From NCBI RefSeq assembly GCF_000426625.1, contig NZ_KE384548.1:62001-126000 (forward strand): a stretch of DNA of 64,000 nt, given 5' to 3'. Shown here one piece after another: positions 5,819-61,933 of the stretch. Every line of letters starts with the position of its first letter. The first letter of the stretch is position 1. The position numbers were made by a program, and so were the translations under genes. Below the pieces are notes generated by a model. It ran no database searches, was not told where the DNA came from, and worked only from the letters and a program-made list of their open reading frames with translations. The stretch is from Psychrilyobacter atlanticus DSM 19335. Its GTDB lineage: Bacteria; Fusobacteriota; Fusobacteriia; Fusobacteriales; Fusobacteriaceae.

Positions 5819-5854
5819 CTATACTTTTAGAGCTTAGACTTTGGGTTAGAATTC

Positions 5855-5919
5855 ACTCATAGATACTAATTTAAGGTTAGTCGTAGATACATCGGACCGT
5901 ATTTCCGATTTATATGAGT
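5855..5919 (-). promoter_or_regulatory. Purine (guanine-type) riboswitch aptamer upstream of guaA
   Basis: Minus strand: P1 is ACTCATA/TATGAGT, P2 is CGGA/TCCG with loop AATACGG, J2-3 is ATGTATCTAC, and P3 is ACTAA/TTAGT with loop CCTTAAA. The loops can kiss through GG-CC. J3-1 ends ATCTATG, placing C at the specificity position (C74 in xpt numbering), as in guanine rather than adenine sensors. Guanine binding should favour the terminator and lower guaA expression. Confidence 0.85.
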
Positions 5920-6014
5920 TATATTAATAATAAATTTTAAAGAATATTACCACGTATTTTCACAGTTGTCAACATATTAGAATAATTTAATTTTTCTATT
6001 ATTTAAAGGTGAAA

Positions 6015-13384: not shown

Positions 13385-13503
13385 ATGTTTTCTTCCAAAA
13401 TTATAAAAGAAATCTCTACTTTTTTATTTTTTCCTCATATTTTTGTTATTGACAACAATATTATATTTATGTTATGATTATTGAAATTTATAACAATAAT
13501 CAA

Positions 13504-13572
13504 TAACTCATATAAGCTAGAAATATGGTCTAGTGTCTCTACGGTTAACCTTTAATTAACCTCTATGGGTGA
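13504..13572 (+). promoter_or_regulatory. Purine (guanine-type) riboswitch upstream of guaB
   Basis: P1 is ACTCATA/TATGGGT, then TAAGCTAGAAATATGGTCTAG for P2/L2, the diagnostic GTCTCTAC for J2-3, and GGTTAACCTTTAATTAACC for P3/L3. J3-1 reads TCTATGGGT with C at the specificity position, so guanine or hypoxanthine is the expected ligand. The 160 bases downstream contain CTATGggTGAA/TTCACacATAG pairing and a T run (13634-13641), which could form the switching structure. Low guanine should allow guaB expression. Confidence 0.9.
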
Positions 13573-13719
13573 AAAGTAAAGGCATAAGTCTATACTCTTC
13601 ACACATAGTTTTTGTAGAGGGTGGACTACGGTCTTTTTTTTATACCTTTTTTTAGATGTAATTAAAAACACAGTATGATCATAATAATTTAGTTTTTTAT
13701 CATTTTAATTTCAATATAA

Positions 13720-45096: not shown

Positions 45097-45193
45097 GGAA
45101 GTAGATAGGTAACTGGTGTGCCTACCGGTCTTCAAAACCGAGTTTTGGCGTTTAGTCGTCATGGGTGGGTTCGATTCCCACATACTTCCGCCA
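45097..45193 (+). tRNA. selC: tRNA-Sec (anticodon UCA)
   Basis: 97 bases including encoded CCA. The acceptor is GGAAGTA/TACTTCC. The anticodon stem CGGT/ACCG holds loop CTTCAAA with anticodon TCA. A long variable arm TGGCG/CGTCA follows, then a T arm GTGGG-TTCGATT-CCCAC. The long extra arm, UCA anticodon and extended acceptor/T domain identify Sec tRNA. It shows that the organism can read UGA as selenocysteine. Confidence 0.95.
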
Positions 45194-59668: not shown

Positions 59669-59724
59669 AAGTAAAAGAATAACTAACTAAACTTTTTAGG
59701 TATTGTATCTATTTAAAGTTAAGA

Positions 59725-59753
59725 AAATTGCCTGCTTTTAGCGGGCAATTTTT
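59725..59753 (+). terminator. Terminator after the fusion gene
   Basis: AAATTGCCTGC/GCGGGCAATTT, T run follows. Confidence 0.85.
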
Positions 59754-59796: not shown

Positions 59797-59825
59797 TTGA
59801 AAAATTGCTTAAAAAATGGTATAAA
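59797..59825 (+). promoter_or_regulatory. Sigma70-type promoter of the mini-selenoprotein gene
   Basis: TTGAAA, exactly 17 bases, TATAAA, 32 bases before the start codon. The spacing is ideal. Confidence 0.6.
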
Positions 59826-59857
59826 TTATGTAAATAAATTTTTAAAGGAGAGGAATT

Positions 59858-59956
59858 ATGTTTAAATTAAGATTTAATTGAGCCTGAATAGCTGATAAAC
59901 TTCTGGATGAAGTTATAATGGAACTTTTAGAATCTGAAAAAGGATATATTATGTAG
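59858..59956 (+). CDS. Candidate UxU mini-selenoprotein (32 residues, two in-frame UGA)
   Basis: Strong SD (aaaggagagg) 7 bases before ATG. The frame reads MFKLRFNUAUIADKLL and then DEVIMELLESEKGYIM, with UGA at 59879 and 59885 (residues 8 and 10). A 6-bp hairpin AACTTC-TGGAT-GAAGTT (59898-59914) puts its loop 22 and 16 bases after the two UGAs, where bacterial SECIS loops lie. The part after UxU is an amphipathic helix. It stands between rhodanese/TVP38 genes, one of which is also UGA-containing. I recognise no family. Alternatives: a decayed gene or a chance frame; without Sec it would be a 7-residue peptide. Confidence 0.6.
59898..59914 (+). promoter_or_regulatory. SECIS-like hairpin in the mini-selenoprotein gene
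   Basis: AACTTC/GAAGTT, six perfect pairs, loop TGGAT, inside the coding sequence just after the second UGA. Confidence 0.5.
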
Positions 59957-60268
59957 TTTTGACTACTTCAATATTATAAACATTTATTCCAATTCACTCT
60001 TTAACTTCCAACTCATTTTAAAAATTATGATGGATATAAATAAATATATTAACGAGATGTTTTGACCTTAATATTTTATCTACTCCTAAATAATTACTTT
60101 CGGAACTGTTCTGTTCCAATTAATAATCATTGTAAAAATCAAGAAAATAAAAAATTTAATCTTAATATATAACTATAATCTTCTTGATAAAGCAGGGAGT
60201 TATTTGTGGTGTGTTAAATTTAAATTGATATATAATAAAAATTATACGAGTATATGGAGGTTAATTAA

Positions 60269-60973
60269 TTGAAGTATAAAAAAGAAAAAGGAATAAAAAT
60301 AGGCATTTTAATAGTCGTAATAGGGCTATATTTATTCGTACCAGTAGTTAAAATAAACATCAATCAAGCTATTTTTATTCTTAAAAATGTAGATGTTGAT
60401 TTGGCAAGAGGTTATATCTTAGGATTTGGAATGTGGGCACCAGTTGTATCATTTTTATTGATGATCCTTCAATCCATAGCAGCTCCTCTCCCTGCTTTCA
60501 TAATAACTTTTGCAAACGCGGGTTTATTTGGATGGGTAAAAGGGGCCATTCTTTCTTGGACAAGTTCTATGGCAGGAGCAGCTCTTTGCTTCTTTATTGC
60601 AAGATTTTATGGTAGAACAGTTGTAACAAAATTAACTGGTAAATATGCACTGGATAGTGTGGATGATTTTTTTGATAGATATGGGAAATATACAATATTG
60701 ATAGCACGTTTATTACCATTTATTTCTTTTGATATTGTCAGTTATGCTGCCGGGTTAACTTCTATGAGTTTTTTCAGCTTTTTTGTTGCAACGGGGATAG
60801 GACAGCTTCCAGCAACGATAGTTTATTCATATATTGGAAGTATGTTAACAGGGACAACCAAAACAATAGTAGTGGGATTACTTATGTTATTTGCAATAAG
60901 TACATTAATCTTTTTACTTAAAAAAGTTTGGAATGATAAGAAAGAAGCAAAAGATATAATAGATCTAAATTAA
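60269..60973 (+). CDS. TVP38/TMEM64-family membrane protein
   Basis: 234 residues starting TTG behind TGGAGG. Hydrophobic segments near 10-28, 52-75, 80-100, 148-170, 175-195 and 205-225. FITFANAGLFGWVKGAILSW and FFIARFYGR, then ARLLPFISFDIVSYAAGLTSMSFFSFF, are the SNARE_assoc/DedA-like signature. E. coli YdjX and YdjZ belong here. The function is not established. The Sec-rhodanese lipoprotein gene starts 12 bases later, so the two are coupled. Confidence 0.9.
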   Translation: MKYKKEKGIKIGILIVVIGLYLFVPVVKININQAIFILKNVDVDLARGYILGFGMWAPVVSFLLMILQSIAAPLPAFIITFANAGLFGWVKGAILSWTSSMAGAALCFFIARFYGRTVVTKLTGKYALDSVDDFFDRYGKYTILIARLLPFISFDIVSYAAGLTSMSFFSFFVATGIGQLPATIVYSYIGSMLTGTTKTIVVGLLMLFAISTLIFLLKKVWNDKKEAKDIIDLN

Positions 60974-60985
60974 AAGGGGGAAGAA

Positions 60986-61933
60986 ATGAAGAAAAATCAC
61001 ATCAAATTTGGACTACTTATTTTATGTACGTTAGCATTTACTTTATTTACTAGTTGTAATAAACAGTCAGCTGAGAAAGCAAAAGAAATAGATCTATCGA
61101 TATATGAAAAAGGAGATTACTTTATCAGTCCACAAGAGCTCAAGTCATTGTTGGGATCAGAAAATTTAATATTATTAGATTGTAATAATCCAAAAATATA
61201 TGCTAAAGAGCACATTAAAGGAGCAATTGGAATTGGGTTCCATGCTTTTTCAGAAAAAGTTGGGAAACCAGGAGACCCAGGTTGGGGGACTATAAAATCA
61301 AAGGAGGAGTTGATTAAAAAACTTATTTCATTGGGAATAGATAATGAAAAAATAGTGGTACTTTACTCCGATCTATTTAAAGGTCCTGGTGCAGATGGCC
61401 GTGCAGCCTGGCAGTTAAGGTTAGCAGGAATGAATAACGTTAAAATCCTTCATGGAGGATCTACTTATTGGAAAGAACTTGGCTATGAAATGACAAAGGA
61501 TATTACAATGAAACCAAATCCTAGTTCAAGTATAACTTTAAAAGATTATGATAAAAGTTTTATGATAACAAAGGATGAGCTTTTTGAAAATTTGGATAAA
61601 AAAATAGTTGTTGATGTAAGAACTAAAAAAGAATTTGATGGATCTCAAAATGCAGGAGAACCTAGAGGTGGTCATATAAAAGGAGCAAAACATCTTGTTT
61701 GGACCGATCTATTAAATAAAAATGGAACTTTAAAGACACCAAAAGAAATAGAAGAGATAATGGGTAAAATGGGAATCTCTAAAAAAGATGATTTTACACT
61801 TTACTGAACTATGGGAATAAGATCGGGTTATGCAACTATGATCCTCAGAGCCGGTGGCTTTGAAAATGCGAAAAACTATGAAGGTTCTATCTATGAATGG
61901 AGTGGCGATAAAACTATGCCAATGGAAAAATAG
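60986..61933 (+). CDS. Rhodanese-family lipoprotein with active-site selenocysteine (UGA)
   Basis: 315 codons read through UGA at 61805-61807 (residue 274) to TAG 61931. The lipoprotein signal ends FTSC. The first rhodanese domain (about 45-170) has LYSDLFKGPGADGRAAWQLR with no Cys. The second (about 190-305) has VVDVRTKKEFDG, GHIKGAKHLVW and then TLYUTMGIRSGYATMILRAG, where U sits exactly at the catalytic Cys of the CxxGxRS loop. It ends NYEGSIYEWSGD, a normal rhodanese C-terminus, so this is not random sequence after a stop. A SECIS-like hairpin follows the UGA, and selC is in the window. It likely transfers sulfur or selenium in the periplasm. Confidence 0.85.
61821..61843 (+). promoter_or_regulatory. 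SECIS-like hairpin after the rhodanese UGA
   Basis: GATC...GATC outer pairs and GGTT/AACT inner pairs (one G-T) with loop ATGC, the loop lying 23-26 bases after UGA. The stem is modest; folding needs checking. Confidence 0.5.

Follow-up and report, generated by a model that had tools for sequence, protein, structure and literature searches.

We found that a short frame with two in-frame UGA codons, at 59858-59956 on the forward strand of the window (the whole 64,000-nt stretch of Psychrilyobacter atlanticus DSM 19335 DNA analysed here), belongs to a conserved unit that is rather probably a cis-acting leader RNA. The tandem UGAs of its short ORF would sense the supply of Sec-tRNA for the operon that follows. 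Eighteen such units were found in two genera, and all of them combine UGA-NNN-UGA with a Shine-Dalgarno (SD) sequence and fixed hairpin spacing, which argues for this reading. With a shade less confidence, we also consider it probable that the units represent a class of Sec-sensing leaders ('Sec attenuators'), in which tandem UGAs and an internal SECIS control a selenium-acquisition regulon.

When UGA is read as Sec, the frame gives MFKLRFNUAUIADKLLDEVIMELLESEKGYIM (32 codons) and ends with a TAG stop at 59954-59956. The two UGAs, at 59879-59881 and 59885-59887, are the presumed control codons, and both are invariant in 18/18 units. Upstream, the sequence points to a sigma-70-type promoter, TTGAAA-17-TATAAA (59797-59825), with a -10 region that is kept in 11 copies. 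The SD of the frame, AAAGGAGAGG (59844-59853, with AAAGGAG at 59844-59850), is predicted to pair with 59977-60002. An intrinsic terminator at 59723-59753 closes the upstream operon of a rhodanese-TVP38 fusion, and therefore the leader unit begins its own transcript. The first gene 3' of the leader encodes a DedA/TVP38 (VTT domain) protein with a TTG start (60269-60973), followed by a two-domain rhodanese selenoprotein (60986-61933, Sec UGA at 61805-61807). All of these features are on the forward strand. The first-pass annotation had described the promoter with its 17-base spacer, the strong SD, the ATG, the two UGAs and the flanking rhodanese/TVP38 fusion, TVP38 (DedA-type) and Sec-rhodanese genes, and all of them are present as described. 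The 99-nt extent that it gave holds for the frame, but the conserved unit is larger, about 340 nt from the promoter to ~60139. The leader peptide has no NCBIfam match at E 0.1 and no Pfam family, and the leaders match no Rfam family.

The gene for tRNA-Sec (selC) is positioned within the window (45097-45189, forward strand), and UGA is thus read as Sec in this genome. SelB has its gene outside the window (C3:151636) and is present in 7 of the 8 genomes of the genus, which also has several glycine/betaine-reductase-type selenoproteins. The presence of SelB and selC supports the cis-leader reading. We infer selenocysteine insertion at the leader UGAs, co-transcription of the leader with the operon, and the regulation including its sign and step.

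A stop-read-through search covered 61 genomes of relatives. All four near-complete genomes of the window's genus contain the frame, with 11 homologous copies, three per genome and two in G006, and all of them keep UGA-GCC-UGA. The first-pass annotation had proposed looking for homologues with UxU or CxC; UxU relatives proved numerous and the CxC form was not found. The copies occur before DedA and the Sec-rhodanese (context W), before carbohydrate-type ABC transporter, GNAT and GH123 genes (context a), or after CobW and before genes for a corrinoid protein, UroD/MtaA-like methyltransferases and a RACo-type activase (context b). Among the genes between a and b in G002 and G007 are SaoX, SaoB, SaoP, SaoA and SaoL, and SaoB and SaoL are selenoproteins.

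All visible copies are located upstream of an operon on the same strand, which counts for a cis-leader. The distance from leader to first gene is variable, ~300 to 1070 nt, and this counts against it. Its variability makes it less likely that the gene's own start site is masked directly, and favours an effect on transcript elongation or stability. In G006 the DedA start is ~306 nt past the leader AUG, and no terminator separates the two. A strong terminator between leader and gene was not found in the window, where there is a weak match only, and this also weighs against a cis-leader. A terminator-like hairpin is weakly seen in one a-type copy. The DedA/Sec-rhodanese operons of G005 and G020, which are 85-92% identical and have no leader, also count against a cis-leader. 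These leaderless operons seem to be transcribed from a promoter of their own. Just 5' of DedA there is a palindromic TATAATAAAAATTATA (60232-60250), which is also present in G002, in G007 and in G020, where the leader is missing. It is possibly the operon's own promoter or operator, which would weigh in the same direction.

The two UGAs are followed by a SECIS-like hairpin, AACUUC-UGGAU-GAAGUU (59898-59914, forward strand), and its loop starts 22 and 16 nt past them. This confirms the 6-bp hairpin of the first-pass annotation, which had placed its loop 16 and 22 bases after the UGAs and suggested its conservation as a check. The 17-nt hairpin AAACTTCTGGATGAAGT is invariant across the 11 copies in the genus, and its core is common to 18 units. 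It is the longest invariant run of the unit, and a run of at least 17 was obtained in 2.2% of column shuffles. Folding alone was unremarkable for the window's hairpin (z -1.6), so it is conservation, not fold energy, that indicates that the leader is not a chance occurrence. Two base pairs of the hairpin are altered on both sides (A-U to U-A and A-U to G-C), the A-U to G-C change being a compensatory one in a single unit. These double-sided changes support the cis-leader reading. We also looked for a lower stem that the SECIS elements would have in common, and it was not supported.

The rules for bacterial SECIS elements (bSECIS) ask for an apical loop of 3-9 nt, an upper stem of 4-16 bp, a G within the first two loop positions, a UGA-to-loop distance of 16-37 nt and an MFE <= -7.5 kcal/mol (PMC13188914). 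The window's hairpin has a 6-bp stem and a 5-nt loop, and the 18 units range over 5-8 bp and 3-5 nt, all within these limits. The loops UGGAU, GGA, GGG and GGU have the required G. The spacing is constant within each genus and agrees with the rule in both (22/16 nt in the window's genus, 24/18 nt in the second). The MFE of the 11 copies is -4.2 to -8.0 when folded in 42 nt and -7.5 or lower for all of them in 60 nt; for comparison, the SECIS of the window's confirmed Sec-rhodanese reaches just -6.9 in 45 nt. That all copies come below the MFE limit only when folded in the longer stretch counts against the cis-leader reading. In contrast to the bSECIS of ordinary selenoprotein genes, the leader hairpin serves two UGAs in a frame of 23-32 codons. 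The leader loop core common to the 18 units is absent from the SaoB, SaoL and rhodanese SECIS of the same genomes.

The first units of the second genus came from a scan of loci for frames that have an SD and two UGAs close together, in which the hairpin was no criterion. The scan gave MFFRV-U-L-U-SVNLTSGRSKYPLEL twice in G011, around the SAO cluster, and the same hairpin core appeared afterwards. With a pattern search and a covariance model the total in G011 came to seven units. The second-genus family comes from this one genome, which has 8% estimated contamination, and this counts against the cis-leader reading. Each of the 18 units of the two genera has an SD, the first UGA at codon 4-8, UGA-NNN-UGA and a GGA, GGG or GGU loop. 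All seven G011 units have a second hairpin just past the stop, in which GAUARAURAGUG-UUUUUAUC or a near variant of it is conserved, and a third one whose sequence covaries; in several of them terminator-like U-runs come next. The terminator-like hairpins between leader and gene in several of these units count for a cis-leader, and by their sequence they are candidate terminators.

To separate RNA from peptide constraint, we compared the aligned copies. Conservation spans from the promoter to ~285 nt past the ATG despite the differing contexts, and includes ~200 nt of non-coding RNA 3' of the frame that is conserved solely alongside the frame and was never found away from it. Between G000 and G002 the ORF is 98% and the 3' RNA 94% identical, compared with 65% at four-fold sites of the adjacent genes. 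This identity of the unit and the constant company of ORF and 3' RNA speak for the cis-leader reading. The idea of a widespread repeat was rejected, since each genome has exactly three copies, or two in the case of G006, and no copy lacks the ORF. In the window's genus, substitutions in the ORF fall on codon positions 1/2/3 as 8, 11 and 8, and those in DedA and the rhodanese as 110, 51 and 285. The third-position share is 8/27 (30%) in the leader versus 285/446 (64%) in DedA/rhodanese (Fisher p = 0.0007). Judged by these patterns, the peptide looks unconstrained in this genus and the RNA constrained. Since selection on the peptide is absent here and codons 1-27 have no indels, translation of the leader seems to matter more than its product. 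The four closest second-genus copies show synonymous-type change (pN/pS 0.056/0.281), which persists in the portion after the UGAs (pS 0.28, pN 0.03). This is the best evidence for ribosomes passing the UGAs, and it is compatible with a selected peptide as well. The coding-type substitutions that the first-pass annotation had named as a test are thus missing in the window's genus and present in these four copies.

We consider it unlikely, and less likely than a cis-leader, that the frame encodes a functional mini-selenoprotein, whose UxU peptide would be a diselenol carrying selenium, sulfur or a metal for rhodaneses, SAO proteins or transporters. The UxU motif is invariant in 18/18 units, but beyond it almost nothing is common to both genera, and no Cys form of the frame exists among the 18 units. 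The SECIS stem core CUUC/GAAG is shared by both genera but read in different frames, giving KLLDE in one and TSGRS in the other. Synonymous-type change in second-genus copies 1-4, including after the UGAs, is what a selected peptide would leave; however, the third-position bias is absent in the window's genus and the C-terminus is free to change frame there (GYIR versus RIY). A selenol ligand would suit SAO and rhodanese chemistry, and rhodanese genes are found near several units in both genera, but the conserved 3' RNA is left unexplained. The first-pass annotation had proposed a tiny diselenide peptide working with the rhodaneses. The neighbourhood of rhodanese genes stands, while a working diselenide peptide with an important sequence is not favoured because of the non-coding type of substitution, the long conserved RNA and the frame-shifted SECIS core.

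For the RNA 3' of the frame, RNAalifold on the 11 copies predicted a hairpin with the stop codon in its 5' arm (59946-59974; two pairs with double-sided changes) and a segment at 59977-60002 that would pair with the leader SD/AUG as an alternative anti-SD. These are followed by a long AU-rich conserved hairpin with an invariant loop region, AUAUUAACGAGA (60023-60095), and by a GGAAC-GUUCC hairpin (60102-60117) not far from where the unit ends, as conservation fades by ~60139; all are on the forward strand. In the consensus fold the leader SD and AUG pair with the segment past the stop codon, and the stop is inside the 5' arm of its hairpin. Support for this fold is modest: for its 76 pairs there are five double-sided changes, and the covariation term is close to zero. 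The b-type SD pairs well only with the b-type segment. A possible second frame 3' of the stop, MMDINKYINEIFU, was discarded, as several copies have lost the start codon and one has CGA in place of the UGA. For the same reasons the ATG frame within the conserved 3' RNA, MMDINKYINEIF-UGA-P-stop (60028-60066), is probably not a gene.

It is improbable that the unit is an independent dual-function small RNA, with a 3' RNA acting in trans and ORF UGAs that tune its stability or release by selenium supply. The unit does have its own promoter following a terminator, and its segment UUCACUCUUUAACUUCC is pyrimidine-rich and anti-SD-like. The conserved 3' part ends at a fixed point in three different contexts, but the window copy has no terminator at this end. 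The location, always on the sense strand and upstream of an operon, argues against it, and so does an orthologous operon that retains a UxU leader in the other genus though the leader RNA has diverged. That the UGAs are ordinary stops, ending a 7-codon leader peptide MFKLRFN before a hairpin of unrelated function, would account for post-UGA conservation that is mostly RNA-level in the window's genus but is very improbable, as the hairpin fits the bacterial SECIS loop, stem and spacing rules (PMC13188914) in 18/18 units, codons 1-27 are without indels, synonymous-type changes occur past the UGAs in the second genus, and neither UGA is replaced by UAA or UAG in any copy of the 18 units.

Some further RNA features were observed. 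In contexts W and a, the leader is followed by another conserved RNA element. It consists of an outer stem UUAAUGCA/UGYRUUAA, an internal loop AAAAUAUAAU / GUCACUUGUGA and an inner stem CUCUCUGG/CCAGRGGG with compensatory changes, and then the conserved sequence CCUCAGUUGAUUCUAGAAGGAUGU. The element has no Rfam match. In the window it is at 60170-60220, where it is truncated, and in context a of G002 it is in tandem. It is positioned ~300-470 nt past the leader ATG in L017/L022 and ~350-740 nt past it in L016/L018/L023. At ~720-830 nt the latter three loci have a long near-perfect hairpin, CUUAUUACCUGUUUG...CAAACAGGUAAUGAGAAAAGGAG, with an SD at its end; a start-stop or tiny frame (ATG TAA; MYKKK) comes next, ahead of the ABC operon. 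The window also contains two purine riboswitches above the gathering score, at 5840-5937 (reverse strand) and 13488-13585 (forward strand).

The cis-leader reading is further supported by selenium-themed contexts, which include a TIGR04553 substrate-binding protein (SBP), SAO genes with SaoB/SaoL, SdmABC-like genes and DedA. In Cupriavidus, DedA was linked to selenite uptake (PMC8679861). SdmABC consists of a corrinoid protein and UroD-type methyltransferases; it releases selenium from methyl selenides and is strongly up in selenium-starved Methanococcus (PMC11097638). The b operon resembles SdmABC, and from its composition a role on methyl selenides may be assigned to it; past the b leader, at L015:5304-10271 and in the counterparts L019 and L024, are the corrinoid protein, the UroD/MtaA-like methyltransferases and the RACo activase. 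In G011, the leaders precede a double-cubane reductase with SaoE and SAO genes, an AEP/Fe-type ABC transporter, a methionine gamma-lyase with a rhodanese, elsewhere another two rhodaneses, and a putative selenate ABC transporter, whose SBP matches TIGR04553 with 324 bits (cut-off 250). The TIGR04553 operon (L202, G011:C19) is headed by MFYUNUSWAKASGGS... with the SECIS AGCUUCC-GGU-GGAAGCU. The SAO cluster (L109), with the double-cubane reductase and SaoE first, has UxU leaders on both sides and a third 4.5 kb on. Another leader of G011 is followed by an activase, a double-cubane reductase and a rhodanese, and then by an ABC/GNAT/GH123 operon. The ABC binding protein of this operon is 86% identical to its context a counterpart, so in each of the two genera a UxU leader stands before the same ABC/GNAT/GH123 operon although the leaders have diverged, which argues for the cis-leader reading. 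The selenium role of the carbohydrate-type ABC/GH123 genes is not obvious, and this counts against it.

The first-pass annotation had also recommended a comparison with the Sao cluster and its small Cys-Cys member. SAO (Sec-assisted organometallic) genes are indeed linked to leaders in both genera, in the operons behind them, but the frames are not SaoC and have no NF040734 match. SaoC (NF040734) has a C-terminal Cys-Cys/CU motif, whereas in the UxU frames U-x-U is near the N-terminus. The Tso selenoproteins (TsoA with LULAxC, TsoB a rhodanese/DsbD) are likewise small or rhodanese-linked and clustered; in contrast, the UxU peptide matches no NCBIfam model, and the window's rhodanese matches TsoB weakly, with 25.5 bits (cut-off 805).

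In the mechanism that we propose, the SECIS hairpin would let the ribosome decode both UGAs as long as the cell has SelB and Sec-tRNA to spare. The ribosome would then continue to the UAG, in or just before the next hairpin, and park there. If Sec-tRNA is short, it would be released or stalled at the first UGA and the 3' RNA would fold otherwise. These alternative RNA states would set the expression of the following operon, typically one for selenium/sulfur acquisition. Expression induced by starvation would fit uptake genes, while expression induced by supply would fit the Sec-rhodanese.

Attenuators of the trpL, hisL and pheL type are amino-acid-sensing leader peptides. The UxU leaders resemble them in having a short ORF with a strong SD and repeated control codons (two Sec in 23-32 codons, in 18/18 units), a stop beside a hairpin, conserved RNA, and downstream an operon that may serve biosynthesis or uptake. 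A link to the sensed compound is suggested by the putative selenate ABC, SdmABC-like, DedA/rhodanese and SAO genes, and some operons have no clear selenium role. The UxU leader differs in that its control codon is UGA read as Sec, which needs SelB and a SECIS inside the leader. The classical attenuators have mutually exclusive terminator and antiterminator structures, whereas here there are at most candidate terminators, least of all in the window copy. The E. coli selAB leader has a SECIS-like element bound by SelB, and to our knowledge it has neither a UGA control codon nor a leader ORF. Both use SelB and SECIS for gene regulation rather than enzyme synthesis, but the UxU unit has two in-frame UGAs, an SD and a start codon. 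We found no Sec-coded leader peptide described in the searchable literature, subscription journals being outside its scope.

The distribution outside Fusobacteriota was covered by the exact hairpin core alone. A scan of 84,980 GTDB species for the exact hairpin gave 18 matches, two of them in UBA2433; the other 16 look like chance, as the hairpin words there belong to ordinary coding regions and no short frame with an SD goes with them. Viral contigs gave no match, and plasmids gave only short chance-level matches covering <=15% of the query. Weak R1, R2 and R3 matches in other genera (E 0.02-1) were taken as chance, and the UxU frame was absent from the two R3 matches that were inspected (L193, L194).

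How environmental selenium is sensed has been called unknown even in Methanococcus (PMC11097638), and comparative work on selenium regulation proposes only a LysR-type regulator (PMC5322559). If the cis-leader reading is true, the leader would sense selenium directly, by counting the UGAs that are decoded. Control by leader peptides would then extend to the 21st amino acid, with UGA as its regulatory control codon. Short UGA-containing frames are skipped by normal gene finders and can be found systematically, and unknown genes behind such leaders would be marked as probable selenium genes.
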